NCBI GenBank assembly: GCA_002205965.3
Contig: NADL03000590.1
Location: 439,001-503,000 of the forward strand
DNA from: Kappaphycus alvarezii
Lineage: Eukaryota > Rhodophyta > Florideophyceae > Gigartinales > Solieriaceae
Length of the DNA: 64,000 bases
Reading direction: 5' to 3'
A program made the position numbers and the translations under genes. Positions within the stretch are counted from its first letter, which is position 1. Each line of letters begins with the position of its first letter. The notes below the pieces were generated by a model. The model saw only the letters and a list, made by a program, of their open reading frames with translations. It did no database searches and was not told the DNA's origin. Positions 2,861 through 60,905 of the stretch are shown here, piece after piece.

Positions 2861-3389
2861 TGGCGATGATGAGGAGTGCCAGGTTAAACGGCGGTCTAAG
2901 TAATTACTAATTTACTGTACTTGATATACTGTACAGTGTGTACAGCACTGCCCAGCTTCAAAAAGAGCCAGGCTAAATTCTGTGCTATGCAGGATGGGGC
3001 GTTTAGGATACTATGTGGAGCGAACTAACTCTGAGCTCCCCTAAGTTATTTGCTTGATACTGTATTGAACACGTTGATTCTGTTTATGTAGGTTTTTTAG
3101 TGAGTTACTATATGTTAATCGCACATTGGCGAATAGCGCTAACGTGGCACGATCTGTTTTGAATAAAATGTGATGCCCTCCCCGCCGTTACGGTGAATGA
3201 GGACACGAGGGTTTTCTAAAGTAATAGTAGTGACATTGCTATCACTTCAAACGGGCGCGAAGAGACTCACTCACCCCTCTCGACCAGCAACACTGTATCC
3301 CTCATTCGTGTCACCACAGCGCAACTAACACGCGCTTTCAGATTGTACTGGTTCATTGCTGTGCTGGGGAGCCCAAGCGGGGTGGTTCA
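2861..3389 (+). repeat. 5' LTR of copia element E1
   Basis: It matches 9616-10144 over its full 529 bp, starts TGGCGATGATGAGG, and ends GGTTCA. A polyadenylation-type AATAAA lies at 3162-3167 and is conserved in the other LTR at 9917-9922. The leader after the LTR contains ATCCGGATT, which recurs at the same place after the E2 LTR, a possible primer-binding region. Confidence 0.9.
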
Positions 3390-3513
3390 TACGATGATCC
3401 GGATTCCTGAGCCGTTCCGGCTGCTTTGGTGCACTAGAGATCTTGTATTTGAAGCTTCTTGTTACCGTCTCACTTTTCCGTAAGTAGTCATACCACCAAG
3501 TACGAGAGCCCAA

Positions 3514-5140
3514 TTGGTAGTCAGATACGAGCGGTTGAAACGAACACCGTCGATTGTCGAACCTACTACAGAAATTGGTAGGGATCTTCGAGACTGTACG
3601 TTAAATACACCCTCAACATCTTCCCGTTATCTGAAGCTGGTGATTCTACATCATCAAATACCTCACCAACTCCGGAAGAAGTTGAAGCGATGCTACGGAG
3701 TCTTTTACCGGCACCTGGACGGATATTGAACAGGTATTTCTTTTGCTCGCCACTTTTTACCATAACTATACTTCAGGATTTCGCAATAGTTTATTTTTTC
3801 GGAGACGTGTCCGGAGGCCTTACCAGTACTGTTAATCTCAGCTCGAGGGAGATTTCAAATTTGTCAATTGTGACACAAGTTTGGTTTATGGACTTATTGG
3901 ACTTTTCCCCTGAAGCTGTTCGCGATGGAATCGATATGTATCGCAGAAGTGGCGGAACAATGACATTATCTCCAAGAGCAGCGGCAGGTGAGACCCGTGA
4001 GAGTGTCCTTAGGGACCACCCCTCTGTATCAATTGTTGAACAGGCTATTCAGCAAGGCCAAAAAATTGCACCTCCAGAAAATAGACCATACAATGAGTCA
4101 CCCGGTGAGCATGGCACGGAACTTCGAAAACTGAAGCAACCATTTGCTGCTCCCAGGGCGGATGGGGGATAATGTAATACTAGAAGATACAAATCGAGAA
4201 GATACTCGCAAAGCAAACTATTTCCTTTAACATTTTAAGGATATTCGTTTAACAGGTGATCTGAACCAATCTATTTAAATCACGCTTAGGGGCTATAAAG
4301 TTTGTGCACATCAGCACGGGCTAATCATATCTCAAAAGGCTGACTACTTCGTTAATATTTTGGATGGTCTTGCCCAAACTTTTTTTCAATAACGCCGATG
4401 ATTCAATGAAATTCAAAGACATGGCACAGACGATGTTTAAAGAATATAACAGCAATTACCGCCAGCTCCAAGTTTAAAGAATGATGAACACTATGAGGAT
4501 AGACAAGGTAATGGCTGAGCAGGAACTGAATTCATATGCAGAGGGGCTCACAAAATTATGACAACAATTGAGGAGCTTGTCCCCCAATGTCCGCTGTATT
4601 TCCGTTCCGAGTTCCACCAAACTGGGTACTTTCATAACGCTGTCCTTGGATTCTCTTGGGCTAATAATCCCATTAGCAATATCGAGACATCCATTTATTC
4701 TTTCCATGGATTCATTACCGCATTGCGTGAGTACATGCAGCTCGAGAAAGAGATAATAGAAGTGACGAAACGGACTGAGGACTCGCGATACATGCGGGAA
4801 GACACTTTCATTCAGCGCTACGGTCGTAATTCTCAGCATCTTCAAAAGCATCCTTCAAAGAAAAGTCGCTCTATGCCACCATTTGGATCACGAAATACTC
4901 GACTCAGAGGAAATCTTGGACGCACTTTCGAAGAGATTCGACGCGGAATGAGTGCCACAAATGTCGCGCTCCATGGACCCCTGGACACAGACGCAAAGCT
5001 GGAGCGACCCGCGACCAAGTTCATCAGAGAATGAAAACGGTGAGTCGGCGGTTCACATTATGTCTAAGCTGGTTTTAGGATTGGAAGGAGAAATAGCTGA
5101 GCGTTCCTCAGGTAATTCTAGCAATGAAAAGTAAACGGTT
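3514..5140 (+). pseudogene. E1 Gag, broken
   Basis: Fragments at 3514-3763, 3690-4172 and 4558-5034 lie in different frames and align in order with the E2 Gag. The LRSLLPAP block near 3690 corresponds to LRDLLPPP in E2, and the QCPLYFRSEF block near 4580 corresponds to PCPRDFRTDA. A zinc knuckle near 4938-4990 reads CHKCRAPWTPGHRR. It has the unusual C-x2-C-x8-H-type spacing seen in E2, with the final Cys replaced by Arg. There are several frameshifts and stops, so it is not functional. The protein would form the virus-like particle in an intact element. Confidence 0.75.
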
Positions 5141-5399
5141 GAAGAGCCTGAGGTGATCCGCTTATTTGAGTCTCTGACGTCTACTACTAATGATGATGGT
5201 CATACACATGAAGAAACTGACAAGGAATGGTACACAAACTACTTGTCCTCCATGATACATAACCATAACTATTCTCTCTCCAGTCATAATACAAAATTGA
5301 CGTCAGAAGAGCAGTATTTTTAACAAGGCGGCAAGAAAACTCGCCTTAACCTCGCCGCCTGTCAAGCTATGCAGAATCTTATCGCAAAGCGCACCCGAG

Positions 5400-6917
5400 G
5401 CGTAAAGAATCTACCTGTATTATTGAAGTGGATTTAACAGAAATAAACGTTATAAGAATAGTCAAAGAACACAGAGCATCCTGACTTCATGGATTCTGTG
5501 TCGATATTGGGGCACCAGAATCTGTTGTTGGCTACAAGGAGGAGCGACGAATTTTCGGGTACCATAAACTCGAAGTACCCAAGCTAAGCAAACCAGGCTT
5601 ACCCAAGCTATTCCGCTTCGCAGATAAGAGCTTCGAGTCGCTAGTCCAAGTTACTGTACCACTCGCAACACCGCCTGGTAACCACCTCATCCAAGTAGAC
5701 CTAGATGTGTTGCGTGCAGATATTCCTGCACAATTGGGGGTTGAAGTGCTAGATCGGGAATCCTTGATTGCCTGTACTGTGGCAAATAGGCTCACCAAAA
5801 GATCCAAGTTCACTTGTGCTGATGGGATAACAGAGTACGCCGATGAATGGTTTGTACCGTTACGCCGCGCAAGGAGTACCCATGTATTCGCCGAAGTACT
5901 CCTCCCAAAACTTTCTTTTTTCACTACAACTCAGCTTGGGAAACTACAAAAACAGTTTTTCCAACCTTCTGCCCAGAAGCTACTCAACCTACTGAAGAGA
6001 GAGCGACCGGAGGAGACAACACAGGACACCCTTGCATGTTTGAAGGATATTAAAAAAGGTGTGATCCGTTCCAGAGGATACATAACGCTCCAACCCGCTT
6101 CCGGGTGTCCTTCGGTGCAGAAGACGGCCAGTTCAACGAATGAATAATATTAGATGTAATGCATATCTACCGCCGGTCCGTATTACATATTGTCGACGAA
6201 GACACCCTATTTTCAGCCGCTACCTTCCTGAAAGACGTGTCGACGAAAACAATACGGAAAACCATTTTGTTATGTTGGGAAACCATTTTGTTATGTTGGG
6301 CAGCTATCTACAGAAGGCTCCCTAATCGCATGTTGGTGGACTAAGGTGTAACCTTTGGCCCCGTCTCCGTGGATATAGGTGCACTCACCAATTTGGAAGT
6401 CGAAAGGACTGGTATTGAAGCGCCATCAAGTCTGGGAATCGCTGAAAGATACCACCAACTTCGGAGTACCTATCGCAAGATTATGTCACAAGAACCGAGT
6501 ACGGAACCGAAATTCGCCCTGTCATTGGCTGTTAAAGCTATGAATAACACCTTAGGGCCTGAGTAGCTTGTATCTTCAGTAGTTGTGTTCGGATAAATCC
6601 AGAGAATGAACACCAGCTCTGAAGACCCTGAACACCGTGCCACTCTCCTCAGCAGGGCAAAGCTCGCAAGGTCCGCAAGAAAGGAAATTAAGAAGCATAT
6701 GGAAAAGATTCGTATATATAGAGCACTCAGATACTCAACGCCACCTTCAGCCAACTTCATTCACAATTTCAGAGACCAAGTCTTGGTTTGGAGGGATAAG
6801 ATCGTAGACAGTCGCATTGGAGAATGGGTATGGTCATTTAAATTGAAGGCCTTTGATCATAATAAAATACTATTCTTCATTCAAGATTCCCTTATAGGCG
6901 CAGCACGACCTTTTTAA
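5400..6917 (+). pseudogene. E1 protease and integrase, broken
   Basis: The protease motif DIGAPESVVG is at 5503-5532. An 'H...Q FFQPSAQKLLNLL' block near 5935-6000 corresponds to the pre-integrase zinc-binding segment. The integrase core is recognisable at 6170-6560: LHIVDEDTLFSAATF near 6187, and GIAERYHQLR carrying the catalytic Glu near 6440. The VVFG block expected after the core follows a TAG at about 6563. A 21-bp unit is duplicated in tandem at about 6257-6300, which adds residues inside the core. Many stops and frame changes make it non-functional. Confidence 0.8.
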
Positions 6918-6955
6918 CGTGTCACAAGTGAAGCAATACTACGATCCAGAATCAC

Positions 6956-8452
6956 TTGCTAACTCATGCTTCACAGATTCGTCATAGCATACGTACCTTT
7001 TCAACACCGAAAGAAAGTTCAATCTACCTCACTGAAGTTATCCACGCAACCGATCCCAGAGCCAGATCCGAGCAAATGAAAATAGCAAAGAAAAGGGAAA
7101 TCACAAATTTACTTGACCAAGACGTGTTTAAAGTCATTCTGAAAGAGGATATCCCTCCTGATGGAAACTTTTTTCACGGGAGGTTCGCGCTGACAATCAA
7201 ACCGACTGAGGAAGGTGGAACAAAATTCAAGGCTATATATGTCATCGGGGGACACCGTGACCGGCTAAAACAATGTTCCGCTCAACGTTTACTCTCTAAC
7301 CGCAGTCTATAAGGATACTTCTATGTCTTGCAGCGATGCAAAATTTTCACGTCTGGACATCATATTTCTGGCAGGCCTATCTTCAGTCAGCCGAGCCACC
7401 AACACGCGAAGTATTTATCACGAAAACATTCCCGGAATTTGAGCTTGACAAATCGTCATGTTTGCAACTCTTAAAGCCACTCTATAGTTTGTGTGAGTCA
7501 GGTAATATGTGTTACGATGCCCTGTGCAGACACCATTTAAACGATCTACGGATAAAAAGACTCCAATTTGATCCCGCTCTATACATACTTATGCACAATG
7601 GAATTCTAAAGTGATTATCAGGTAGATAAATTGGTGACCTTTTAAGAGCAGGCGACGACTTTTTCAAAAAACTGTGCAGATGGACTCATGAGAAGTTCGA
7701 TATGGCAGAAGAGCAGTCCCTTCTATGCACTTTTACTGGTATCGATTTACACAAAACGGCTGGTGGCTCTTTCGTGCAGAAACAAAATTTATACCTTATG
7801 AAGTCAGAGGAACTCTCCACAGACGCGCCATTTCATTTATTCCTATCTATGAGAATGAAAGTAGCTTGGCTTTCGAGCAAAAGACCGGACTGCCTGTTTG
7901 AAATATCACAGCTGGCTCAGGTTACCGAGTACATGTTTGAATCAGCTCGTGACAAGATTATACGACAACTCACCAGGGAAATACAATATGAAAAGCAACA
8001 AATGGTCCATCTGTAACTATTTAGGCTCGATAGAAACAGTTTGAGGGTGATTGGTTACTAAGATTCCTTGTTCGCCAAAAACTCTGATTTATCGTCACAG
8101 CTTGGGCACATTTGCCTAATTGGAGATGAGATGGGAGCTGTAGTACCCATACATTTCAAATCCTGTAATTCTCGTAGAGTAACAAGATCTACGATGGCTC
8201 CCGAAGTTATAGCTTTCAGTGACCTCTTCGATATTGCAGCCACGCTTGTGGATGAGCTGAGTGCCATGATGGGAAGGAAAATAACAATACAGCTATATCG
8301 GAAAGCAAATCACTCTTCGATTTCATTTCTAAAGGGTCAAGAACTAACATAGCTGACGTGCTTACCGCGTACAAGAGTCAAGCTGAACTACGTAATATTT
8401 TAACTTCGGGACGCCTTGATATAACTGCGGAGCAATGGATTATTAAGAAATG
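6956..8452 (+). pseudogene. E1 reverse transcriptase and RNase H, broken
   Basis: The RT N-terminal block (LLDQDVFKVILKEDIPPDG) lies near 7110, and the FWQAYLQSAEPPTREVFI block near 7365. The YVDD catalytic box expected near 7630 is destroyed by stops. RNase H begins near 8060 with a segment matching E2 (LSSQLGHI) and retains EVIAF with its Glu near 8205. The end reads ITAEQWIIKK then stop, matching QIDQWIVRS in E2. Domain order is gag-PR-IN-RT-RH, which defines copia and not gypsy. Confidence 0.85.
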
Positions 8453-8540
8453 ATTGGTAACATAACGTCGAAATGGACTTTACTAATGACATTCCTTACT
8501 TACGAGAGCAGTACAGCTCGCGCCCCCTGGCCACATAGAA

Positions 8541-9383
8541 TTATCTTATATTTTCATCACCACAAACACGTAGAGAACGCTCACAGAGTCGCATTAGTTT
8601 TTCCTCCTCACAATCCACGATGTCCTTTCTCGGTGCATCGATGACAACACAATGATAAACGGTTTTTCCAGCACGCAGTCTCACAATGAATACTCCGATC
8701 TCCAAATTGGCAAGCCAAGAAAACTTTTTCGCCCGAAACTTGTCATCTTTGACCTTGAGCAGGTTGTAGTGGGGTATGACTTTTTGTGAACCGTATATGC
8801 GTACTGCCAATTGAAGGAAAACATCCTTCAATATTTTCAAGCTCTGCACTCACAAGCGTTCCTGCTTTTTCACTGACAAGCCGGGCAGGGCAAAATAATT
8901 AGATATGGAGGCAAAAAGACAATTACCCTTCCGTCTGTGCCCGATGATAGGTATGCCATTGTCAGTGTAGTACTCTTTTGCAATTGTACTCTTGCGTCGT
9001 GAGTCAGGACCATACTGGGCAAGTGGATTCTCAAGGCACCAGGATCGAACCAGATTGCGCTTAATGGTGATAGCTCGCCTGTAGTTGGATTTCGTGGGTT
9101 TTACGACCGGTGCCTGTGGGAGGCCATTGGTATCGGCATGGCGTTTTGCAGTAGGATATTCAGCCCGAACTTGAAACGAGAAATTCTTGTAAATCCTCGA
9201 AGAATACGAGTCAATACTCACGCCATACATCGACGAAATAATATTCTGGGCACTTCTTGCCGTGAAGAAGGCTCCCTTTTGAAATAGCCGCCCCTTGATT
9301 CGAGAGTCGTCGCCGGCTATAATTTTTTTAATGCTAGTCTGCTGACCTGCATTTGAGGTACTCCCCATATTTAGTACCCCCAC
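8541..9383 (-). CDS. Antisense accessory ORF of copia E1, possible papain-fold cysteine peptidase
   Basis: The frame is continuous on the minus strand for 281 codons, interrupted by one TGA (8850-8852), and it lies between RNase H and the 3' LTR. It is homologous to the antisense ORF in E2 (55215-56300). Shared blocks are an N-terminal [RK][LV]F[QE]KG motif; a KGNCLFAS motif with its Cys codon at about 8919-8921, aligned with LDCVPAS in E2; and a C-terminal G[VI]xxVRL followed by HCVVIDAPRK (His near 8652), aligned with HCVAIDARRR. Cys followed about 90 residues later by His and a nearby Asp is the order used by papain-fold and OTU-like peptidases. That function is a hypothesis; no family was recognised with certainty. 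It is far less damaged than the pol of the same element. Confidence 0.6.
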
Positions 9384-9420
9384 AAGCCCCTCGTTAGGTA
9401 CTGCGGCATTACTGGGAGGT

Positions 9421-9544
9421 CTAGCCTGTGTCTGAGAGGTGTAGGGGCGTTCTAGCCTGTGTCTGAGAGGTGTAGGGGCGTTCTATCCTGTGTCTGAGAG
9501 GTGTAGGGGCGTTCTAGCCTGTGTCTGAGAGGTGTAGGGGCGTT
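9421..9544. repeat. Minisatellite, four copies of a 31-bp unit
   Basis: Four head-to-tail copies start at 9421, 9452, 9483 and 9514. They are identical apart from one base in the third (CTATCC instead of CTAGCC). It sits 38 bp upstream of the antisense ORF start (9383), in the position of a promoter or leader for that ORF, and just before the 3' LTR. Confidence 0.95.
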
Positions 9545-9615
9545 CGCGTGATTGGGGACCTATGAATACAACGTCATCACTTATAGTCAAAACATTCGTT
9601 AACAAATGGAGGGAG

Positions 9616-10144
9616 TGTCGATAATGAGGAGTGTCAGGTGAAACTGCGAACTAGGTAACTACTAATGTACTGTACTTGATATACTGTACAGTGTGTACAG
9701 CACTGCCCAACTGCGAAAAGAGCCAGGGTACATTCTGTGTTGTACAGGATGGGAGGTTTAGGATACTATGTGGAGCGAGCTAACGCTGAGGTCCCCTAAG
9801 TGATTTGCTTGATACTGTATTGAACACGTTGATTTTGTTTATGTAGGTTTTTTAGTTAGTTACTATATGTTGATCGCACATTGGCGAATAGCGCTAATGT
9901 GCTACGATCTTTTTTGAATAAAATGTGATGCCCTTCCCGCCGTTACGGTGAATGAGGACACGAGGGTTTTCTAAATTAATAGTAGTGACATTGCTATCAC
10001 TTCAAACGGGCGCGAAGAGACTCACTCACCCCTCTCGACAAGCAACACTGTATCCCTCATTCGCGTCACCACAGCGCAACTAACACGCGCTTTCAGATTG
10101 TACTAGTTCATCTCTGGGCTGGCCAGCCCAAAAGGGACGGTTCA
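9616..10144 (+). repeat. 3' LTR of copia element E1
   Basis: Direct repeat of 2861-3389, 529 bp, TG...CA ends, AATAAA at 9917-9922. It contains the dispersed GTACTGTAC-type motif near 9668. Confidence 0.9.
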
Positions 10145-10224
10145 TGTGACACTGTCTGTCTGCCATTCACATCTGTTTCCGTAACTTATATTTGAACTGA
10201 TACTATGAGATTTACGCTACATTA

Positions 10225-15531: not shown

Positions 15532-16718
15532 ATGGACTCGACGGAGGCTGCGCCTGAGCGCGGCATAGATCAATCAGATGTGTTGGAAAAGTACAAGGCC
15601 GCCGGCGCAATCGCCGACCAGGCCATGGATGTCTTGCGAAAAGCGGCATTCGGCGGAATGTCGGTTCGAAAGATGTGCCAGTTGGGTGATGCCGTGATCG
15701 AGAAGGCGGCCGCCGGGGTGTATTCAAAGGCAAAGACGGATACTGGTGAAAAACTGGAAAAGGGTGTTGCGTTTCCCACGTGTGTGTGTGTCAACAACTG
15801 TGCGGCGCATTTTTGCCCTATCGAAACAGATCCGGAGGCCGCTGTGGAGTTGACGCAGGGCGATGTGATTACAGTGCAGGTCGGCGCACATATTGATGGT
15901 TATTCTGCGTTGACGAGTCAGACTCTGGTGGTGAGAGCGAGTAAGGAGGATGATGATGTTGCGCCGTTGGAGGGTAAAAAGGCAGACGCTGTGATGGCGG
16001 CATATACGGCGGCGGAGGCTGTGTTGCGACTGATGCGACCTGGTAAGACTAATGAGGAGGTGAGTGACGTTATTGGGAGGGTGGCTGAGATCTACGGGGT
16101 TCAGGCGTTGGAGGGTGTGCTGAGTCACCAGATGAAGCGGTATGTTATTGATGGGTCCAAGGTTATTGTCAACAAACAGACGCTGGAGTGCAGGGCCGAC
16201 CGTCGGGAGTTTGAACCGTACGAAGTGTACAATTTGGATGTTGTCATGTCCACGGGCGATGGTAAGGCGATCGAAAGAGATACGCGTGAAACAATCTACA
16301 AGCGGCAGGTGGATGTTGATTACAAGCTCAAGATGAAGACATCGCGGCAAGTATTTTCGGAGATCAACAAGTCGTATCCCACTATGCCGTTCACTCTGCG
16401 GGCGTTGAGTGATCCAAGCGTAGCCGGATGGCAATGACTGAGATGTTGAAACATCAGTTGGTGACATCATACCCCGTATTATACGAAAAGGACGACGCCG
16501 TCGTAGCGCGGTGCTCGTTGACTGTCCTGATCACGCCCAATCAAACGATGACGGTTTCGAAGAGCCAAATGCCAAAATTGAACTGCGGCATAGAAATGAA
16601 GGACGAGAAGATTGCGGCGCTTTTGGCAACATCTATGGACAAGAAGAAGAAGAAGAAGAAGAAGAAGAAGGTTGCGGTAGAGGAGAACGGTGAGCAGGAA
16701 GATGCGATGGAAACGTAA
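15532..16718 (+). CDS. PA2G4: PA2G4/EBP1-like protein (methionine-aminopeptidase fold)
   Basis: This is the eukaryotic proliferation-associated 2G4 family: a pita-bread-fold protein without peptidase activity that binds ribosomes and RNA and acts in growth control. From the ATG at 15532 the frame runs 301 codons: GMSVRKMCQLGD, KGVAFPTCVCVNNCAAHFCP, LTQGDVITVQVGAHIDGY and PFTLRALSDPS are characteristic. The C-terminal part (YPVLYEKDDAVVA, then a run of ten Lys) continues in the -1 frame from about 16428. One missing base in the CC at 16424-16425 explains this. The joined length of about 398 residues fits the family (human protein 394), so the gene is probably intact and the sequence short by one base. 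Intronless. The Lys-rich tail matches the nucleolar/ribosome-binding C-terminus of the family. Confidence 0.92.
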
Positions 16719-23291: not shown

Positions 23292-26200
23292 ATGCATTCC
23301 CCGTCTGCTCCCCCCGCCGGCCCGACGACATCTCCGGACCCAGGTGATAGCGATGAGCCAGAGGCCCCCTCAACTCCACAAACTTCCGTGTCCGTGCCGT
23401 CATCAGCCTCTCAAAACCCGGATGACCCCCCTCGTGTCAAGATTTCAGTCGCCGTGCCGCGAGAGGCCGTAGGCTTCATTATTGGAAAACGGGGTGAAAC
23501 CGTACGCAACATGATGAGCAAATCAAGCGCGTACATCGCTGTTGACCGCGAAGATACCAATCCCCATGCACCCAGCCGCCTCTTCCATATCGAGGGCGGC
23601 AAGACTGCCGTCAGTGCTGCACATGCGCTAATTCGCGAAAAGGTCGCTGCCGTGCTCTATGGCAGAACTCATCCTCGGGTTCATGACCCCGCGCTAACTC
23701 CCTTGCCGGGCAGTCATTCAGCTGGCCATGTCGATATTCCCATCGATGACGCTCCATTATCTGAGCCGTTGGAAATGTGGATTCCGCGCGGTTGTGTTGG
23801 AATGATAATTGGGCACGGAGGACAGGTCATTAACGAGATGCAGGAGCGTGCGGGTGCGACAATCGTCGTTCACAACAACAAAATGGACCTGAATGGTTCA
23901 AAACTCTTGACTATTTCAGGCGGGGAGCGCGAAAAGCACCACGCCAAGGAGCTAATACAAAACGTCCTGGATCGAGTCGGTTTACGCAACCGATTCTCAG
24001 ATCACCCTCCACATGCTCAGGAAACTCAGTGGGGCTTTGTGCCCGCACAGCAACATCCGCAACCACACCCTTGGTACTTTAGCCACCCAAACCCCCCGTG
24101 CAATTTGACCCGCGTCATTTTTCGGAATTCCCCCCGCGATACCCGCCCCAATGGCTGCCTCCAATGAACATGCATCCGTCACCAGGGGGGCAACAATCGC
24201 AAATCGTTCCGCCTCCGCAAGTGCAGCCGCAAACCCGCAACCAGCACATCGGCAATCGCCGGCCGGGCCGCAAACTCCTCCGCAGCAGCAACACCCGCAA
24301 CTATCGCTTCAAGTTCCTCCACAACACCAAGACCAGGCAAGACAGCAGGCGATGCACCCGCAGCTGCACTCGCCTCCTCTACTACAGCCACCAATTCCGC
24401 AACCACCTCAACCATCTCAACAGCAGCCGCAAGTTTCGCAGCAACTGGCCCCACCCCAGCAGCAACAACCGCCACTGCACACTCAACTTCAACCGAACCC
24501 GATGGTTCCAGGACCACATCTAACTACACTTGTGAACCCAATTTACCCACAACAGATATCACCTGCAGGACAGCCAATGCCATGGAATCCAAGCCAGGTC
24601 CCATACCAGCTGACTCAGGCTGTGCCTCCTCCCTTTGACAGCAATCTGATGGCGGGACCGCACATGGGACAGATAGCGACCAAGGCAGTATTTGTACCAT
24701 CTTCCTGCGTCGGGATTATAATTGGTCGAAGCGGTGAGACAATCAGAGATTTACAGCAAAGATCGGGAGCTCACATTAAGGTCACTCCTGACAGGGATGC
24801 TAAAGAGGACGCCCCACATCGAATTATCCACATAAGAGGCACACCTGCGGCGTTGAAACTCGCGCAGTCCCTCGTCAATGACGTCATTAATGAAGGACTG
24901 ACTCGTAGCTATCGAGACGGCCTTGAGCCACGACCTGGCCCACAGCAGCAAGGCCAAAGCAGCGGTGAACGTCAGTATCAAAGTGGGGACGACAAGGCCA
25001 GTGACGGTGCGTCGACAAAACGAGATGACGATGGGGCTGTTGGAAAAACCGACGGCAGTGATAAAAAGACGCTAAGCAAACTGAAAAACAAGATCACGCA
25101 GAAAGCAAGCCTCAGGCTGCGGGAGGTGAGAAAGTGAGTTCAGCAGCTTTTCCTGAAACTAGGACTGTCCGTGAAGAGGACAAGTCGACAGGGAGGAGTC
25201 AATTTGATGCTGTTGGTAATAACGAAAAAAAGCCAACAGAAGGAACGGAGGGAAACTCCGAACTATCTCAGACATGGGCCGGAGATGAAGTTGATGGTGA
25301 TGACCAATACGAGGCACTGCAAGAATACGACCAAGAAAACGACGATGGGGATGGGGACAACATCTCTGTGCCATTCACGGGGAAGGGCGGCTAGTAGAGC
25401 GTCCGGTCACCAACTACCCAGTAATTCGATCTCTTTCCAAATGAAGATCCCCCATGCAAAAGTCGGGTTATCATTGGGAAACGAGGGTCGACAATTCGAT
25501 TACTACAGCAGAGATCCGGGGCGAGAATTGTTGTTTCAAAGAAAATCGACATGTCTAAAGAAGACAACCCAAGGGCCGTGACAATTACGGGTCCCGAGCC
25601 ATTTGTGGAAAACGCTCGACGCCTCATTGTTGCAAAGATCAGCCCGCCTGCCGGAGAATTGTTGAAAGCGGATGAGAAGGACGTCGGAGCAGATTCCCTC
25701 GACTATGGCGATGGGGGTTTAGGGGACGAGGCAGCAGTCGAGTCGCTAGCAGCGGAATTCGGCAACCAGTCTCTCAACAGCCCTCCTGCGACGACAATGG
25801 TAACGGAATCGCCGCACCCATCTCCACTATGGGGGTTCCACACAACCCGCAATTTGGTCCGTATCAGAGACCCGTACCGTTTATGGGTCCGATGCCGGCA
25901 GTGCCGTTTCCAAATGTGACCCACCCTCAGGGCGTGAGGCCTGTGACGCGCTCTGATATGCCAGAATTTCAATCGATGGACCCGCAGGCGCATCAACATC
26001 CACAATTCCCTCCGCAGTTCATGGGACCTCAACAATATACTAACCGGATGGCATTGGGAATTGGGTTTCCATTCTCTCACAACGTGGAGGGTGGCGAGTC
26101 GCTACAAGCTGGATACGGGGAGTTTCGGCCCGAGCACTTTTTTCCTCACCCAGGATCCAGTTTTGCAGGAATGGCAATGGATGGATCGGGCAACTTTATG

Positions 26201-28219: not shown

Positions 28220-30035
28220 TTAAAGGCTTTTCATTTTGCCGATCCCCCCTTTTGTCTTGCCCTCCTCCGTACCCTTCCCCATCGCCTCCTTACGCCGGTC
28301 GATAAGCGCGTTGACATCATCCACATCCCCCTTTCCCATTAAAGACAGCTGCCTCGTCGAACTATGTCCTCTCGTCAATGACCGCAACCGAAATACCGCC
28401 ACAAATGCCCGTGCTGTAACAATCAGCTTTCTTCTATACCGCAACGCAATCGATAGCTGTTTCTGCACCACCGCAGAGCTCATCAACCGCTTCATTCGCG
28501 ACGGGTTGTCGCTCGCAACCCGTTGCAGCCCAAGTTCCGCGATAGCCCGCACAGACGGTGTCATTTGCAACCGAGGCTGCACACCCAGGCTTGATGAGCT
28601 GGATACCTGCTGCAACGACCGTTGCGAGGTCTGCATTCCAAGCAAAGAGGTCTGGCGTTCGCTAGACTCGCTGCGCTCCTGGGTGCCCTCTAGCGGTGAT
28701 TGCGACGATGCCGACGACGCTGCTCGACTCAGATTCGACAGTGATCCGGGAGTCTGTGGGTTTTGGCGGCGACCGTCCGTGCTCGTGTTGCCAGGTGAGC
28801 CGCGATCGGCCGTTGGAATGCCTGCCCTGGTGGTGGGCGATGTCGGGCAGGAAGCGTTGATCGAGGCCGGGCGCGACAGCTGCACTCCAGGGTTGAGCCA
28901 CCGGTGTTGCAAGGACGCCAATGCGCTGATTCGCTTGTGAGGATTCCTTTGCAATAACTGTAGGATAAATCCCTTGGCATCGGGCGAGATGTTCTTCCAA
29001 ATAGGGTTGTCAAACTTGACGACGCCCTTTTTGATTTTCTCAATCACCTCTCGATCCGATCGGCCACGGAAAGGGAGCTCCCCCGACAGCATTTCGTACA
29101 GCACGACACCTGCTGACCATATATCGACGAGAGGACCATATTTGAGTCCGCGGCAGATATCGATGCATATGTAGGGCGGGACGCCAATCATAGTGGTAAG
29201 AACGTCGTGGTTGACATGCTTGTCGGATACAAAGTTGGCGTCTCCGAAATCACCGAGGGCGATGGACATGGGAAACTTGGCTGCGGAACAAAAGATATTG
29301 TCGGGACGTACGTCACGATGGACGATATTTTTGCCGTGAATGTGATTGAGGCGGTGACCAGCTCACGCATGACGACCCGAGCGTACGACTCTGGGAGGCG
29401 GTTGTGTTTTGCGAGAAGATCGGCAAGGGTGCCTCCACGCATGAGTTCAAAGACGATGTGGTCCTTTTCGACGGTAGAAAACATGTCGACGGCTTGGACG
29501 ATAGCAGAGTGATTGAGGACGGAATTGACGTGACGTTCGCGGCGAAGCCATTCCGAGGCTTGTATATCATGGGCCTCTTCTTGATGACCTTTACAGCAAA
29601 GACTTTCTTAGGGTCATCGACGTCGTAAGCATAGTAGACTCTAGAGTGGGAACCTTCTGCAATCAAGGGACCCAAACTGTAGTAGCGCTCAAAGCAGCGC
29701 TCACTAGCAAACATTAAACTTCTCGCCCAACTCTGCATTTCCTCTGCTGAACCGCAGTAGCATGTGAAGACTCGCCTTCCCGAGACGATGCGGAAGCTCT
29801 TCTTTGCATCGCGATCACTAAACTCGACGAGGGCGCCATTGACATCAAATTCGTCTTCCGGGAGATGGTTCTCTGACTCATGAAAGGAGAGGACCTCACC
29901 ATGGAGCTTTGCAAAACGAGGATGACGACGAGCGATGCGACCGACCTTGACAGTGAGCCAGCCGGTCATACGGACTGGCATTCCATTGCGGAATTCTGGT
30001 TGGTCGGATTCGGCGACGGCGGAAGCGAGTGGCAT
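28220..30035 (-). CDS. PH-domain protein kinase of CAMK type
   Basis: N-terminal pleckstrin-homology domain (about residues 18-110; starts MTGWLTVKVG, ends with the conserved Trp in MQSWARSLMFA) predicted to bind phosphoinositides. It is followed by a Ser/Thr kinase domain: nucleotide loop AEGSHSRVYYA, VAVK-type Lys in FAVKVIKK, catalytic loop HRDVRPDN, DFGDANF, DIWSAGVVLYEMLSGELPF, and a CAMK-style end ISALASLQHRWL. Then follow a Ser/Pro-rich linker and a basic C-terminal segment. Two features are unusual: the catalytic-loop Lys is Arg, and the APE motif reads CID. The frame changes at about 29557-29562 and 29350. Adding one base at each place restores a continuous domain, so these are probably sequence errors. 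The PH-plus-kinase order recalls AKT, but the kinase lobe is CAMK-like and not AGC. Confidence 0.88.
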
Positions 30036-49628: not shown

Positions 49629-49963
49629 TATCGCACAGGACAGCGCAGCAATTACAACTGTATACTGTATAGTGTACTACGCACTGTAAGAAGTAGCCGC
49701 ACGTCGATGCCACTGTAATGGCATCGACTCGTTGGGTGCGCGGGTATCTACCATTAGTAACGCCGTCGTCCGTCGTACCACCCCACACCCTACGATCATC
49801 ATCAAGAGAAGTTTCAGGTGCGTAGACAGTTGTCCGCTGTACTGCCGAGGCATCCGCCCGGGCCTTTCTCAGTAAAACCTTCCTTTATTTCAATACTGTA
49901 GCGATCCTATCTCCACGCCGATTGCTATCGTTTGGATCGCTAGCCGTGAAATCACGGATCTCA
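49629..49963 (+). repeat. 5' LTR of copia element E2
   Basis: Matches the split 3' LTR from 56596. The first base pair reads TA where the other copy has TG. The right end at CA (49962-49963) is inferred from the motif ATCCGGATT in the following leader, which also follows the E1 LTR; the last 70 bases cannot be checked because the window ends. Confidence 0.75.
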
Positions 49964-50061
49964 CGACAATCCGGATTAGAGGCTCGTCCTTTTGCGGCAA
50001 CATCCACCCGTAACCAATTTTATCTCCCCCTTTTCTATTCTACAAGCCTTTTGATCCGTTC

Positions 50062-51928
50062 TTGCTGAGATATCTACATCACACCGAGAACGATGGCCCT
50101 GACATCTATCGGGACATACTGTCCAAAAAACGCAAAATCATCCGTATGATCAGTGCCGCTAAATTCAAGAATGAGTACTTAAGCGATATTTTACAAGCCG
50201 CAAGGTCTACTTTCGAGTACTTCGCGCTCGAAAAAGAAGATAATGAAGAAGTTAACGTACCGTCTTCAGTTTGGGAAGCTACGCAAGACCAAGAAGTAGG
50301 TGACTTCCTTCGCGATTTGCTTCCGCCTCCGCATGCAATGTTCTGTGAAGACTTCTTTCAGTCTTCACTCTTTCCGTTTCGTGTGCTGATTCAAGTTGCC
50401 GAGTTTTTTTCATTCGGGAAGATACCTATGGACTTCATGGATGGATTGTACCTTACCAGCGCAGAAAAGAATGATAAGCGTATTTTCTTGTTAGCATGGT
50501 TATGCTACTTCATGGACTGCAAGGTTGAGTTCGCGCTTTCGGTGATTCGAAAGTACAAGGACTTCAACAACGCTCCTGTCCCTGCTATCGGCGTTATACG
50601 CACTGGAATCTATAGTCCGTCCGACCCGAACGGAAGCACAGTCCCGCCGGAACTAGTAACCAAAGAAGGCAGGAACAGTAGCTCTCCGAATCTACCAATT
50701 CAAGTGTCAGCGTCACCCGGGGCTTCACTCCCGACAGTCAGGCAAAAGACATCGTCAACTGGAGCACCGAAAGTTTCCCCACTAGATCCTCCCCAACCCG
50801 AAGTATCAGCGAGATATACAGACTCGCATGGCATAAGGGCAGTGAGGACGCACGGAAGGCCAATTATATCCAACAAATGTTCAAGGATATGAAGTTTTCA
50901 GGCGAAATATCACAGGATATTCACGAAGCACTTAAGCTGTACAACGTTGTATCGCGCCAATACAGCCTTTCTCCTATGCAGAGGGCTGACTTCTTCATTA
51001 ATTGCTTCGGCGGAGCAGCCCGAAAGTTCTTCTTTGACATTTGCAACGATTCAATGTCGTACGAAGAACTGGTCAACGTCATGCTCTCAGAGTATGTCAG
51101 CGATGCCCGACAGCTCCAAGTCAAAAAAAAACCCTGGAAACACTACACCTGCGCTCTTTCTTGCATGATAAGGGTTTGAGTGACGTCTCCCTTGGCTTAA
51201 AGACGCTCGTGGAACACATCAACGAGCTCGTTCCACCTTGCCCGCGAGACTTTCGCACCGACGCACATAAGATCAACTATCTCAGAAAAGCCGCGACTGA
51301 GTTACAACCGTGGTCTCGCATACCCATTCAGAGCATAACATCCCAAGGTTACTCCTACAATAAGCTCGTCACCACGTTGCACGAATCGATACAGAACTTG
51401 CGTCAACTTGACCTACTCACCGGAGCCCAGGACCAAGACTACGGCAGGCTCACTGGGATCGTAGCAGAACACAACGGGCAAGATACACAACTTACTCGAT
51501 ATGGCCGGAATCCACATCAAAATGCTCGATTAAACCAACGATCAACAAATCAAAACAACCGCAGAGGGCATATTCGCGATAAGAGTTACCATCAAAGGGC
51601 CCCGACCTAAGACAAGGTGCGATACGGAGAATGTTGGAAGTGTGGAGCGCCAGAATGGTCCCCCAAGCATCGATGTGGACCAGAGGCAGTCGCAGCATTC
51701 GCTCGAAACCGCTTGCAGAGGGGGGAGTCGGCGGTCCATATCCTAGCCGACTTCATCAAAGGTGAAGACGAACCACCCCAATCGGACTCAGAATATGATA
51801 ATGTTCACAGTGCAATGTTGCTTAACGAGCATACGGAACTTGCCACGCTCTATTCTTTACTTTCGGACGAAAAAGAAGACAACGATACCCACTTCACCTA
51901 CACGACAAAACTTTGTGGATTCGAGTGA
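50062..51928 (+). pseudogene. E2 Gag, nearly intact but frame-broken
   Basis: Frame 1 covers 50062-51179 and frame 2 continues to 51928; the change lies at a run of eight A near 51123-51131. A TAA at about 51607-51609 separates the zinc knuckle. The structural part includes FLRDLLPPPHAMFCEDFF and YNVVSRQYSLSPMQRADFF. The zinc knuckle CWKCGAPEWSPKHRC (about 51636-51680) has C-x2-C-x8-H-x-C spacing in place of the usual C-x2-C-x4-H-x4-C. No ATG fits the start of the open frame at 50062, so the true start is unclear. Confidence 0.75.
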
Positions 51929-53500
51929 AACCGTAGAAGCCGCAGATTGCGAAAGCATGACGCATCACGTCGCTGCTGCCATTCACCCAAACGCGCTAGC
52001 GCCATACTCGCGAAATGTTGCCTCAGAATACCTCTCTCCTTCGGTGGTTGCCGAACCCAGTGCTGACCAAGCGCAGAACTCCGCCAGCTCCGAAATACTT
52101 ATTACCGACACGTTCGTACGGGAGCTCAATGAGAAAGTCCGTAGAAGCCGCACACTAGGTTTCATCTGTGATATTGGTGCCCCAAAGTCAGTAGTTGGCC
52201 GCAAAGAGCTGAACCACATATTGACGGCTCTTGGGATCCACCGTAGAAAGATAGTGCCATCTCAGAACTCGTTTCGCTTCGCTGACGCTTCTTACAGCTC
52301 TCTTGGATGCACCTCCTTAACTCTCCAAACGCCACCGGGCATCCTTCGCGTCTTTGTGACTATGGAAATTGTGGATGCTGATATCCCTGCGCTTCTCTGG
52401 ATGGACGTAATGGACAGGGAATCACTGAACCCATGCACAGTCTCAAACCGCCTTTTTCATTGCATTCTGCATTCGCTAGGAGATAGCCAAGTAGTATGTG
52501 TGGATGAATGGTTCGTCCCGATGACGCGCGCCGCGAGTAACCACCTTTACGTTCCTTTCCATGCAAGCTATCGCATTCACTTCACAAGAACGCAGCTAGC
52601 TCGGCTTCATCGTCAATTCTTCCATCCCACTGCTAAGAAGTTATTCAATCTGATTGCCCGCTCTCGCCCGGAAGAAGCCACCCAGAAACGCTTAAGACCC
52701 TCGAAGATATCTCAAGGCGTTGCGATCCCTGCCAGCGGATCCAGCGCGCCCTTATTCGTTTTCGTGTATCCCTTGGAGCATAATAAGTTCTTTCTTTTTA
52801 ACGAGCGGATCTTCCTCGACATCATGTACATCGATGGAGCTCCAGTCCTCCATATCGTCGACAAAGGGACAAGGTTCAGCGCTGCACGCTTTCTCGATAA
52901 TGTGTCGACGGATCACATCTGGGCAAAGATTATCGAATGCTGGGCAACTATCTACACAGGTCTCCCGAACAAGATACTTACCGTCCGTGGCTCTGCCTTT
53001 GGGCAAAAGTTCATTCATCTCGCAAAATTAGCAGACGTAGACGTCGATCGTACTGGGATTGAAGCACACTCAAGTCTCGGTCTCGGAGAGCGATACCACG
53101 AACCACTACGCACACCGTTCCGCAAAATACTTTCGGCATACCCGACAGTCAATAAGTCTGTTGCCCTTGCTTGTTCTGTCAAGTCTATGAACGATACACT
53201 AGGTCCAGAAGACCTAGTCCCATCTGCTCTTATCTTCGGAGAATTTCCACGGATTCGAACTTCATCTGAACAGCACCATATCCATCCGACCACGGAAGAA
53301 AGAGCTGATATTACCGCGCTTGGGAGAAGCTAAATGGCTAAACACATGGCTATGCTACGCCTCCTTCATGCACTTAAGCATGTAGTTCCCCCAGCATGCG
53401 ACCGTGCGTATGAACCCGGAGAAAAAGTACTTGTCTGGCGCAAGAAAGTCATCGCAAATCGCATCGGCGAATGGCTAGGCCCTTTCCCTTTTGGGCAGCT
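51890..53500 (+). pseudogene. E2 protease and integrase
   Basis: Open in one frame from 51762 to 53333. The protease shows FICDIGAPKSVVG (52161-52199), with DIG in place of the usual D-S/T-G. The pre-integrase zinc-binding block is LARLHRQFFHPTAKKLFNLI near 52597. The integrase core has LDIMYI (first Asp, near 52818) and LGERYHEPLR (Glu, near 53083); the second Asp position reads TVRGS, so the triad is incomplete. PSALIFGEFPR near 53222 is the post-core block. The frame is +1 relative to Gag, which could reflect either frameshifting or one missing base. Confidence 0.85.
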
Positions 53501-55212
53501 TTGACCCCGGGAAGAAGCTTGTATTCGTCCGCGATACCGACGCAAGCCCTCCGAGGCCCTTCAACTTGGTACAAATGAAGCCCTATCTGAACCCTGAGAC
53601 ACTTGCGCACACCTTTCTCACCGAATTTGCTCATGGCTTCAGCAACTTTACGTCACCTTCGGAAGACACCATTCTCGCCGTCGAAATGCTAGACCCAGAC
53701 GACGACCGTACAATAGGAACCGAAATGTCAAAAGTCAAGAAGGAAGAAGTACGAGGCCTGCTTCAACGTGGTATCTTTAAGGTCTTCTTGCGTGACGAAG
53801 TGCCAGAGGATGCCAACGTGCTACCAGGACGCTTTGTACTTTCATTGAAATCGACGATGGACGACAAGGTTAAGTTCAAGGCCAGGTACGTCATCGGAGG
53901 CCATTGTGACAAAATTAAACATCTGTTAGTGCATTAGTCGACTACAATTCAACCACAATCGGTCCGTCTCCTTCTAGCCATGGCTGCAATTTTCGGCTTC
54001 GATGTGTGGACCGCTGATATCACCCAGGCATACTTGCAGTCCATCGAACCCCTCACCCGCGATATATATATCGGCAAACCTGCTCCCGAGTTTGAACTAG
54101 ATCCTGAACAATGCCTCAAGCTTTTGCGACCGCTATGCGGACTATGTGATGCCGGTGACCTCTGGAATGCCATAACTGACAAACAATACCGCGAAGACCT
54201 TTGGATGCGGCCGCTTTGCATCGACCCAGCCCTGTACTACACCCTCAACAACGGTATCTTGAATGGAATGAGCGACGCTTACGTTGACGACCTCATGTGC
54301 TGCGGATCTGAAGGCTTATGTTATTAATCCGATATTACTCGTCGCAAATTCGAGATGAAGCCTGACGAGTCATTACCAGCATAGTTTACGGGATTCATCG
54401 TCGGGAAGGAAGATGACGGCTCATTCTTCATTGACCAAAACAACTACCTTCGCAAGCTTGAGTGCCTCTCATTAGAAGCATCCTTCTCCGAATTTAGGTC
54501 AATGAAAATGAAACTGCGATGGCTTTCGAGCTCAAGGCCGGACTGCCTTTTTGAAATATAGCAGTTGGCTCAAGTAACAGAGGACAAGTACATCAAGGAG
54601 CGCGCTTCTATCATTCACCGACCTAACAAGGCCGTGAGATACGCTATTTACAATCGACTAAGGCTCCTTATCGGCAAACATGACCTCCTTACGCTTTGGA
54701 TCGTGGGCTTCTCGGACTCCTCCTTCGCAAACAACCGCGATTTTTCTTCCCAGCTTGGACACATTGTTTTTCTAGGCGACAACTCAAACTACGTAGTACG
54801 ATTGTCCTTCAAATCCTACAAGGCTCGCCGTGTCACCGGATCAGCTATGTCTGGTGAAGTCATCGCTTTCAGTGTTATGTTCGTCATGGCCGTAGCTATC
54901 GGTCAAGAACTTGAGGTCATCCTCAACAAACGCGTCCCCATTCACCTCCTAACTGATAGCAAGAGCTTGTTCGACGTTATTTCCAAAGGGTAGCGGACTT
55001 CCGAGAAACGGATGATGATCGATATCGCTGCTGCTCGAGAAGCTTTCCGCGACAACGTAATTTCCGATATTGGTTTCGTGCGTAGCCAAAAAAACATCGC
55101 TGACGGCTTAACGAAACCCATGTGTCAGTTAATGCTCCGTTACACTGTATTAACAGGGCAACTAGACGTTCAAATTGATCAATGGATCGTTCGCAGTCCA
55201 GACATCACCTGA
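53491..55212 (+). pseudogene. E2 reverse transcriptase and RNase H with in-frame stops
   Basis: RT: LLQRGIFKVFLRDEVPEDAN, DVWTADITQAYLQSIEPLTR, KLLRPLCGLCDAGD, and an intact YVDD box at 54280-54291. RNase H: Asp in VGFSDSSFA, Glu in SGEVIAF, Asp in LTDSKSLFD, then NIADGLTKPM and an end at DQWIVRSPDIT. In-frame stops occur near 53935, 54326, 54382, 54559 and 54991. Domains keep their catalytic residues, so decay is recent or partly due to sequence errors. Confidence 0.88.
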
Positions 55213-55214
55213 AT

Positions 55215-56300
55215 TTACTCCTGCACTAACTGGAACACTTCCGCTACCTCCAACTTTGGTGTGTCTGGCCCGCTGCACATCTCCATAGTCCTTGCCGTCA
55301 ACTGAATTGGGTACCTTTCCGCATTATCAAGTATAATACGGCGTCGCGCATCAATTGCAACGCAGTGGTCCACCCTTGGTAAATCGCGCGCCACCTGCGT
55401 TAATCGTACAAGCCAAATGCCGCGCTGGTACCCCACAATCATCGCAAAAGCTGTCCTTCCACGGTTTTCAGCATTCTACGCCTCCTTGCATACAACTCCT
55501 TCTTGTCATACGGTTTACGCAAATTCAACCCCCGCTTGACAGTTTGAAGTACTCCCGTTAAAAGCCCAAGCTTCCGAAAGTGCGCATCAGCTCTACTTAC
55601 GTAGTCACGAACCCTAAAGCCAAGCACAAAACCGCCTAAACAGCTTGCCGCGCTTACTGCAGACGCTGGTACGCAATCAAGACTACCTAACACGCCGACG
55701 AGCAGGAATCTCAATTCTCGGTTGAAATAAGGATCCAGCTCGAGTTTACCATCTCGTGCGCCGGGCCCAAACGTCACTACTGCAACTTCCGGATTGAGAA
55801 GACAGAAGTTCTTCACGAATGCCAATGCAAGCCGCTCATATTGCTTCATATCACTTGCTTGCGCCCTTGTAGGTTGATACGGCGGGACTACGCATTGTCG
55901 AGGCATTTTTTTGCCGCTCGGCATCGCAATCGACTGCGTTTTGAAAGCAATGAGATCTGGATGAGCATGTCTGCGGAGACATCGAAGATTCTACGATCAC
56001 AAAATAGCCAAACTTGTCCAACGCATTTGACATCGTCTCATACCACTTTCCCTTTTCGAATACTTTCCCACCAACATCCACCCCGCTGCCGTACAGCACT
56101 GCATCGATGCTGTACTGCTTATTGTCAACCACGGCGGTCTGATTTGCCGATGCAGTAGCAGTGGAACCCCGCCCTCCTTGAACAACCGCAGACCCTCCCC
56201 CATCGCTGCTGTGTGTCTCACGCTTCTTCGCTTTAACCTTCCTCCAAAATTCTTCCACATCGCTTGACTCTTCTCCGAATATATCCTCATATGCCTGCAA
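55215..56300 (-). CDS. Antisense accessory ORF of copia E2, possible papain-fold cysteine peptidase
   Basis: Minus strand, immediately downstream of RNase H (3 bases from its stop), about 360 codons in three frame segments (55851-56300, 55439-55924, 55215-55442). The joins lie within the 55850-55980 overlap, which includes an A7/T7 run near 55908, and near 55440. Homologous to 8541-9383 of E1. An N-terminal Ser/Lys-rich part precedes GGKVFEKGKWYE. LDCVPASAVSAASCLGG has its Cys codon at about 55673-55675, and GIWLVRL then DHCVAIDARRR has its His near 55365. These are candidate catalytic residues of a cysteine peptidase; the family is not certain. It ends EVAEVFQLVQE. Conservation between two diverged elements argues that the antisense reading is a real gene. 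Confidence 0.65.
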
Positions 56301-56595
56301 CAGCTCCCTTTATTCAGCCGTCAGCACTTCTCGTGATCTCTTCATTCTCGTTAAGGGATTGGAACGCTCCTTGGTCAACCCCTGTGTAGGCTAGATCAGC
56401 AAACATGGGGAAGAAGGGGATGGGACAAACGCCAACACAACCGAGGATTTATTCTACCGTTTCTGCCGATGGCGCCCTGAGAGTTCCGCCGCATCCCCAA
56501 ATACCGACAATTCGTATTTTGGCCCAGAAAATTTTACTTACTATAAGTTCATTTGGCGCCCATTACCGCACACCACGTTGTACCACTGGGAGGAT

Positions 56596-56610
56596 TGTCG
56601 CACAGGACAG
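56596..56610 (+). repeat. First 15 bases of the E2 3' LTR
   Basis: TGTCGCACAGGACAG corresponds to 49629-49643. It follows a purine-rich stretch (GGGAGGAT) that may be the polypurine tract. It is interrupted here by E3. Confidence 0.85.
56606..56610. repeat. Target site duplication GACAG, left copy, of E3
   Basis: Identical to 63730-63734. The unoccupied site is seen once in the 5' LTR of E2 (49639-49643). Confidence 0.95.
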
Positions 56611-56896
56611 TGTGATCGTACTGCATTGTTCGCGTACAGGCCTTCGACCGACCTGTTGTGTCGGTGAGCGCGCTTTCCGTCGACGGAACAACGCGGGCGA
56701 GACGGTTCAACGAACAACACACGACGAAGACGAGAAGGGCGTGAGCCCCCCTACTCGCCACGCCCGTCGTCTGTATTTATTGGAGACATCGACGTTCGGA
56801 GCAACGAGCACTGTAGGGCGTAAAAATAATGGTAAAAGACTAAACCTAAAAAACAAGCCGATTGAATTAACAATGCTCTCTTCCCGTCGATTCACA
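56611..56896 (-). repeat. 3' LTR of E3
   Basis: Near-identical to 63445-63729. On the minus strand it is preceded by a purine-rich tract (AAAGAGAAAAATGCGGGAG), the likely polypurine tract. Confidence 0.95.
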
Positions 56897-56913
56897 CTCC
56901 CGCATTTTTCTCT

Positions 56914-58300
56914 TTAGGGAGCCGGCTCTGAGCGTACTACCCACTGACTCGCCAGACAGCTATCGACTCCGGTTAGCAGGAGCTTTTGCAATGCTCCGTT
57001 GCCCTGCACCTTAGAAAGATCATCGGCGGGATTATCAGCTGAGCTTACAAGTCCAATGTGAGTGATTTCTTTTATCTTGTAGGCTTGGCGAGTAGCGCAT
57101 ATATATATCATCAAGCGTTTCTCGGTAGTATGCTGCCACCTCGCAACTGCATCGAACAGTTATTTGGAATCAGTGAGACAGTCAAGAGGAATTTTGACGC
57201 CTAGCATACGTTCTAAGTTGTGTTTGATTAGAAATGCCCTGTCGAAGCCGTCGGAAAAAGCATAGACCCTTCCTCCCATAATCGACCTGACGACACGTTT
57301 GGACTTCTTACTAGAGTATTACAAGACGTGTGCATTCCCCGAGTTGTCTTCGAGCAAAATCAGGAACCAAATTTGTGATGATAAATCGTCATAAGTCGCA
57401 AACGCGACGTCTGCGTACATCTTCATCCGGATTGAGGCAATGTCTAGCGGTTTATGTATTAGCCCAGCATCTTGAGTTCGCTTTGCTCACTGACTGCCTT
57501 GTTGTACTCCGTTAACTTATCACTTGAGAATGAAGTCTCTGTTACTTGAGCTGCCCGGTTATTAGGCCAACATAGCTCGGAACGAGTGTTTGACATCCAA
57601 GCTAATGACGCTCAATACTTCCGGAACCCATCGAAGGTGCAAGTATCAGGTGCGGTCTGAAGCCGCATCGCATGTCGCTTTTGGGTCATCTTGAATTCAC
57701 CTGGCCGGATGGTTTTGATCACAGTTCCGAAAAAATCGGAGTTGTCGTACACCCTTGGCTTGGAATCAAACATCTCAAGAGTTTTCTTAGTCATCTCCTC
57801 GAACCTTTTGTTCCCAGCATGGATTTTGTCATCAACATAGATTGCAATAACTCCTTCTAGCTCTCCATCAGAAATTTTGAGGTACATTGCGGGGTCGCTC
57901 TGGCTTGGGGACATTCCGAGGTCTTTGTCGGCATGTAGATGGATGGTGAAACCCCATTAGTCACCTGCATCGCACGTACCGTAGAGAGGCTTCAAGGTAG
58001 CTATTAATCTGTTCGGGATATCCCCCGGAGCTATCTACGACAGCCTTAGCCCGGTCCTTACCCTATAGGAGTTTCGCCGCGACTCTCCCCAACAAGCCTC
58101 AACAGCCATTCCAAAAACTAATCACGTCCGACTAGTTCCTAGTAATGTATCACCTCCAGTATTAAGTTCCTCAGGCTTCAGCAGTTCCAGGAGTTCTTCA
58201 TTTGTTACACCAAGAATATCAACGTCCTCCTTCTTCGGTAGGATGAATACCCTCCTTGTCATCGGGTCCTTACTCTACACATACGCTTGGTTCATGTCAT
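56914..58300 (-). pseudogene. E3 reverse transcriptase C-terminus and RNase H
   Basis: The block ELLKP (near 58185) is interrupted by a 190-bp repeat, and RT resumes at LKPLYGTCDAGD (near 57990-57960). YVDDKIHAGNK near 57830 carries the intact catalytic box. RNase H retains DCLTDSK near 57170 and NPADDLSK near 57030 and ends QWVVRSEPAP. Multiple stops. Confidence 0.85.
57993..58182. repeat. 190-bp repeat, copy A, inside E3 reverse transcriptase
   Basis: Aligns without gaps to 62152-62341, with about ten differences by eye. In RT it is flanked by TGAAGCC on both sides, as if that target were duplicated. No coding potential. Confidence 0.85.
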
Positions 58301-59745: not shown

Positions 59746-59759
59746 GCGGCCGTAATGCG

Positions 59760-60700: not shown

Positions 60701-60905
60701 GGTTGAAACTATACCTGCCTTGTCTGGCATAGTGTATCCCGATATTGGTACTGTTGTATACGTGGCTTCGTCCAAGTACATTATCCGTCGCGATCGCCAG
60801 CTTCGCTTACTTATCCAGCTGGAGCGCGGCCACCAGCTTACCATAAAGCATTTGGAATGAGAGATTGTCGGTTGCGACACGGCTTAGCGGCTCACGCGAC
60901 CATGG

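Follow-up and report, generated by a model that had tools for sequence, protein, structure and literature searches.

The subject of this analysis is a 64,000-nucleotide stretch of DNA from the red alga Kappaphycus alvarezii (contig NADL03000590.1, positions 439,001 to 503,000; hereafter the window), and a gene that two copia elements in it, E1 (2861-10145) and E2 (49634 to beyond 64000), carry on the strand opposite to gag-pol. In E1 this antisense gene is flanked by the end of the RNase H frame (8453) on one side and the 3' long terminal repeat (LTR, starting at 9616) on the other. Its minus-strand open stretches, 8850-9482 and 8541-8849, share one frame and are split by a single TGA (8850-8852), which falls between the candidate catalytic cysteine and histidine. 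The E2 gene is spread over three frames, and only two bases separate its stop codon (55215-55217) from that of pol (55210-55212). Both window copies are damaged, E1 by a stop codon and E2 by frame changes. The main features are given below; P0003 is a full-length relative from a protein database, from outside the genome assembly.

2861-3390, plus strand: 5' LTR of E1, 530 bp, 91.5% identical to 9616-10145
3582-8453, plus strand: gag-pol remains of E1, as open frames; the RNase H frame ends at 8453
8541-9368, minus strand: E1 antisense gene, broken; ATG 9366-9368, stop 8541-8543, one in-frame TGA 8850-8852
8613-8615, minus strand: E1 candidate third catalytic residue, Asp (KDIVD), from an alignment including P0003
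8652-8654, minus strand: E1 candidate catalytic His (YHCVVIDA); 34 of 73 residues identical to P0003 across the region
8919-8921, minus strand: E1 candidate catalytic Cys (GNCLFAS), from family alignments
9420-9545, no strand: 31-bp tandem repeat, 4.1 copies, 97% matches, between the E1 antisense ATG and the 3' LTR
9616-10145, plus strand: 3' LTR of E1, 530 bp, from comparison of the LTR pair
49634-49893, plus strand: 5' LTR of E2, matched part, 86.6% identical to 63726-64000
50014-55212, plus strand: gag-pol of E2, as open frames; the RNase H frame ends at 55212
55215-56309, minus strand: E2 antisense gene, broken, in three frames (55851-56309, 55439-55990 and 55215-55475)
55326-55328, minus strand: E2 candidate third catalytic residue, Asp (RIILD), from the translation
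55365-55367, minus strand: E2 candidate catalytic His (DHCVAIDA), from the translation
55673-55675, minus strand: E2 candidate catalytic Cys (LDCVPAS), from the translation
56609-63729, minus strand: E3, an element of another copia type nested in E2 and lacking the antisense gene; LTRs 56609-56896 and 63443-63729
63726-64000, plus strand: 3' LTR of E2, from the LTR match, incomplete because the window end cuts it

The original prediction had aligned the antisense open reading frames (ORFs) of E1 and E2 and named motif blocks common to them. We located all of these blocks in both translations: LFQKG, NCLFAS, GVFIVRL and HCVVIDA, the last followed by RKDIVDCEEE, in E1, and VFEKG, DCVPAS, GIWLVRL and HCVAIDARRRIILD in E2. 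The alignment likewise held up, as the C-terminal pieces of the two genes showed 32% identity (E 6e-9, in one comparison alone), and P0003 matched the E1 C-terminal piece with 47% identity (E 1e-18). When P0003 was used to search the genome, it recovered E1 at E 8.4e-14 and a sister copy of E2 on contig C169 at 1.2e-15; the matches listed in that search did not include the window's own E2 copy. A profile of seven relatives (profile A2, six E2-type rows and one E1-type row) matched the two E1 pieces at E 4e-20 and 2e-13. Because this profile already includes an E1-type row, it is the P0003 comparisons that provide independent support for E1. Judged from these alignments, the two antisense genes are homologous. 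Their predicted location between RNase H and the 3' LTR applies to both elements, except that the 3' LTR of E2 lies beyond E3, which was inserted between it and the antisense gene. The 31-bp repeat of E1 is a possible promoter region for the antisense gene.

The 336-Mb assembly containing the window has 17 matches to the phycobilisome-linker family PF00427, spread over many large contigs and in some cases representing two pieces of one gene, and three to PF00502, as fits a red alga. Searches of this assembly identified the antisense gene as a repeat family. The E1, E2 and P0003 queries returned 38, 124 and 128 matches, respectively, and L054, an open copy from elsewhere in the genome, returned 123. 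These were merged into 232 places, using the rows of the E2 and L054 queries together with 32 of the 38 E1 rows and 59 of the 128 P0003 rows that were picked by eye as new. Among the open copies outside the window are L054 and L059, with 373 codons from one stop to the next, and L034, with 456. L054 sits in an element, L061, that shows the E1 arrangement of RNase H end, antisense gene and 3' LTR; its LTRs are 99.4% identical, its pol frames are interrupted, and its convergent stops are 7 bp apart according to their coordinates. The antisense genes L054 (contig C458) and L059 (contig C590) are near-identical, with 98% identity, for which recent movement, duplication or the assembly of two haplotypes would each account. 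Searches of a protein database of 5.8 billion sequences yielded six proteins, all from one source, and one of these, P0001, is apparently the same as the genome copy L048, as judged by eye. No relative turned up among viral contigs in a single pattern scan.

The antisense gene is linked to pol in a consistent geometry. Among 150 places matching the protease-integrase region of E1, the gene was found opposite to and downstream of pol in 67, at a median distance of 2.55 kb and mostly within 2.4-2.9 kb, against 83 places with no antisense gene detected downstream on the opposite strand. Exceptions to this geometry were one same-strand pair and one pair on opposite strands with the gene upstream. 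Five pol places without a detected gene were fetched; remnants were present on the expected strand in two of them and absent from the other three. With the E2 integrase as query, an antisense gene lay at a distance of at most 5 kb in 39 of 82 places. E3 served as the negative control: 75 of 128 E3-type rows were checked against a 164-place list of the antisense gene, and none of the 75 had it within 12 kb. We therefore rejected a chance linkage between the gene and copia elements, given the 40 pairs observed where about one was expected and the 0/75 at E3-type places. For 29 of these 40 gene-pol pairs, matched by hand, identity to E2 was correlated between integrase and antisense gene (rho 0.70, n=29). 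This joint rise fits inheritance of the antisense gene together with pol.

The coding status of the antisense frame was assessed from both strands. In eight open stretches (235-414 codons), every sense frame contained between 3 and 21 stops, and sense-strand coding, which the original prediction had named as a potential source of the conservation, is rejected for these stretches. Frame scoring of six of these stretches placed the antisense frame first in 15/15 pairs, the second being the sense frame whose third positions coincide with it. Nei-Gojobori estimates were obtained for 55 pairs from 11 sequences, with the ratios of nonsynonymous to synonymous substitution rates (dN/dS) covering E2-type copies. 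Between E2-type lineages, the proportions of nonsynonymous (pN) and synonymous (pS) differences were 0.28-0.50 and 0.71-0.87; dS was saturated or above 2, and dN was 0.35-0.84. The original prediction had taken dN/dS near 1 across many copies as evidence against itself. The ratio is far below 1 between these lineages and 0.33 between E2 and its sister copy L032, but it rises to 0.95 (L034/L035), 0.69 (L038/L039) and 0.54 (L043/L048) in three young pairs; between L054 and L059, all differences are nonsynonymous (pN 0.009, pS 0). The share of differences at third positions was 0.37-0.62, mostly 0.5-0.6, between E2-type lineages, 0.21-0.51 within E2-type subfamilies and a mixed 0.18-0.62 among E1-type pairs. 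Purifying selection thus acts on the antisense frame between E2-type lineages and, on this E2-type evidence, the gene encodes a protein. Lineages that still move appear to be under selection and dead copies to drift, which is the expected pattern for a functional retrotransposon gene.

The predicted product spans about 310-415 residues in the open copies and the full-length relative. Its N-terminus is variable and is followed by a conserved N-terminal part; the C-terminal domain comprises about 145 residues. Two AlphaFold models, both of low confidence, resemble papain-like cysteine peptidases of the C39, staphopain and Josephin types. The P0003 model places Cys175 at the N-terminal end of a helix, His259 in a strand and Asp272 at the end of the next strand, and the P0006 model repeats this order with Cys60, His144 and Asp157. 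A papain-like (clan CA) cysteine peptidase layout is thus supported at the level of predicted structure. Both models were built from one set of ten sequences, and this shared input slightly lowers our confidence in the explanation favoured below. Pfam searches returned no family match to the antisense protein at E <= 1 (for four of the six proteins from the database, at E <= 5), including the Peptidase C39 and OTU (PF02338) profiles, and the Josephin family profile did not match in these searches either; searches of PDB sequences and Rfam yielded nothing useful. A match to AFTRAX (E 0.004) covered 60 positions and did not recur with a second profile. Of the original Cys...His peptidase reading, the papain-like order of Cys, His and Asp is supported by these low-confidence models; the OTU or other named deubiquitinase assignment was supported by none of the sequence tests.

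Taken together, the antisense gene is a genuine accessory gene of one copia clade and under selection, and we consider it reasonably likely that its antisense transcript gives rise to a trans-acting cysteine peptidase that aids the spread of the element. Transcription of these elements would probably start at both ends, with gag-pol made from the 5' LTR and the accessory gene convergently from near the 3' LTR; the latter lies tail-to-tail with pol and reads towards RNase H. Its product would most likely be a cysteine peptidase that acts in trans and helps the element spread. As candidate substrates, we would place a ubiquitin-like conjugate or a host restriction factor first and the element's own Gag-Pol second.

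In a narrower form of this explanation, the antisense gene would encode an enzyme of deubiquitinase type (Josephin- or OTU-like) that strips Gag or integrase of ubiquitin or of a ubiquitin-like tag, or that dampens host control. Foldseek placed Josephin-2 at the top for model 1 and BpJOS, an entry titled ubiquitin C-terminal clippase, for model 2, and such recruitment recurs in other transposable elements: Ginger1 has both OTU and Ulp1 peptidases, Helitrons have OTU and Mutator elements Ulp1 (PMC2836005, available text). In a second structural comparison, however, PCAT1 outscored Josephin with both models (Z 10.0 versus 7.5 for model 1 and 8.1 versus 6.5 for model 2), as did staphopain. No ubiquitin-peptidase family was found in Pfam, and no OTU entry was among the matches listed in the structural comparisons of either model, an absence that excludes nothing. 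We regard the deubiquitinase proposal as less likely than not.

The protein might instead mature the element's own Gag-Pol, sharing or taking over the task of the pol aspartic protease, and the protease site of these elements bears on this proposal. The relevant sites, with the reverse transcriptase (RVT_2) matches, are as follows.

In frame 5485-6147, plus strand: E1 aspartic protease site VDIGAPESVVG, from the open-frame translation
In 7300-7614, plus strand: weak RVT_2 match in E1 (Pfam 4.3e-05, under the Pfam cut-off)
In 52134-52226, plus strand: E2 aspartic protease site CDIGAPKSVVG, from the frame translation
In 53938-54327, plus strand: RVT_2 match in E2 (Pfam 1.3e-11)
In 60195-60287, minus strand: E3 aspartic protease site CIDSGAEKTVIG, from the frame translation

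A D-I-G site is present in E1, E2, L045 and L061 (L061:5870-5962), the last of which has 99.4% identical LTRs. Inspection by eye of 20 other fetched elements of the clade identified 10 with D-I-G, eight with D-T-G, one with E-I-D and one that was unreadable, while 20/20 E3-type elements and E3 itself carry D-S-G or D-T-G and none of these 21 carries D-I-G. On a short tree (about 100 residues, modest support), D-I-G and D-T-G alternate within the clade that has the antisense gene. All these points favour a role in Gag-Pol maturation. Against this, according to coordinates the antisense gene is downstream in all eight D-T-G elements, and among the ten D-I-G elements it is present in seven, reduced to a remnant in one and not listed for two (L068 and L077); because of these counts, D-I-G does not track the antisense gene within the clade. 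The notion that the antisense gene simply replaced a lost aspartic protease is weakened by the same eight D-T-G elements, and the D-I-G site may itself still be active. Constraint on the aspartic protease may be looser in this clade, which would have a second peptidase; alternatively, the isoleucine may be harmless there. Overall, maturation of Gag-Pol by the antisense protein is unlikely; the more specific proposal, in which a second maturation protease encoded on the opposite strand has freed the aspartic site from D-[S/T]-G and lets it switch between D-T-G and D-I-G, is more doubtful still. As to other frames in the window, the gag-like frame of E3 matches Pfam DUF1759 barely above its cut-off, and host-gene-like frames at 23292-25137, 15532-16437 and 28220-29269 include matches to KH-domain proteins, to a Peptidase_M24 protein and to a protein kinase domain, of which the C-terminal part is present.

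The antisense protein could also have no enzymatic function and use its peptidase-like scaffold for a regulatory or structural task, the kind of role supposed for antisense proteins of plant elements. In line with this, the candidate His is kept in 35 of 43 loci and varies in eight (counts that include overlapping loci). Cys and His are nevertheless both intact in P0003, L054, L059 and L034, the third residue in L034 being Glu, and we give a non-enzymatic role only a small chance. The Cys directly following the candidate His (HC motif, E1 8649-8654) is kept in 42/42 loci, exceeding the His itself. It is very improbable that the antisense transcript, through double-stranded RNA regulation, is what matters and that the open frame is incidental: the near-abutting convergent stops (2 bp in E2, 7 bp in L061) would yield overlapping transcripts, and a role of this kind has been discussed in plant elements (PMC7264820, available text), but the antisense frame is conserved at the codon level across lineages.

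Returning to the accessory peptidase that we favour, its closest structural counterparts differ from it in context. Relative to the C39 domains of PCAT1, ComA and HlyB (C39-like), all of which we take to belong to C39, the antisense protein is without a Pfam match, has an extra N-terminal part and is not joined to a transporter. It resembles the Josephin proteins (Josephin-2, ataxin-3 and the bacterial JOS enzymes) in that these lead the Foldseek matches of both low-confidence models, and is unlike them in scoring a lower Z than with PCAT1 in both models and in lacking a sequence match. OTU/Ulp1-type peptidases also occur in the Dualen and NeSL non-LTR elements. With Ginger1, Helitron and Mutator elements, the algal copia clade would share the recruitment of a cysteine peptidase, here a predicted one; but the Ginger1 peptidase is a C-terminal domain of the transposase, whereas here an LTR element carries the predicted peptidase as its own antisense gene, with no OTU or Ulp1 sequence match (PMC2836005, available text). 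Other extra ORFs, some with enzymatic domains, are described for bdelloid LTR elements (PMC5408684, available text). The terms OTU, Ulp1 and cysteine are absent from a paper on accessory domains of retrotransposons (PMC6338049). Among the titles and abstract openings listed in a literature search, with subscription papers mostly outside it, we found neither an antisense peptidase gene in an LTR element nor an antisense gene in a red-algal copia element, nor the combination of copia, red alga, antisense gene and papain-like peptidase.

The nearest known arrangement is that of the plant LTR retrotransposons Grande, RIRE2, Retand and PvRetro13, which carry additional antisense ORFs (aORF-3R) between pol and the 3' LTR (PMC7264820, PMC11963269; available text of both). 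According to the available part of a 2020 review, a clear similarity to other proteins had not been described for the plant antisense ORFs (PMC7264820). A 2025 paper, as far as its available text goes, reports TRP28, predicted to bind DNA, and a few other domains in the antisense ORFs of Retand, with their function unknown; Retand belongs to Ty3/gypsy, and tandem repeats lie between pol and the 3' LTR in about half of the Retand clusters (PMC11963269). The algal gene has the location that defines aORF-3R, between pol and the 3' LTR in E1 and L061, and is antisense in 67/150 pol places. It is like the plant ORFs, as described in these sources, in place, orientation, its many copies and, in E1, tandem repeats in the same stretch, and is unlike them in belonging to copia elements of a red alga and in its predicted peptidase-like fold, where the plant elements have plant hosts and Retand has TRP28. 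In plant LTR elements, antisense genes in this position have been known for years; the algal ones form a large family outside plants with a testable predicted fold, whose named candidate catalytic residues open the function of such genes to biochemical test. If the proposed role is true, the transposable elements known to recruit cysteine peptidases would gain a further design, in which the peptidase is encoded separately and on the opposite strand. A single genome here offers a natural comparison of elements with and without the antisense gene.
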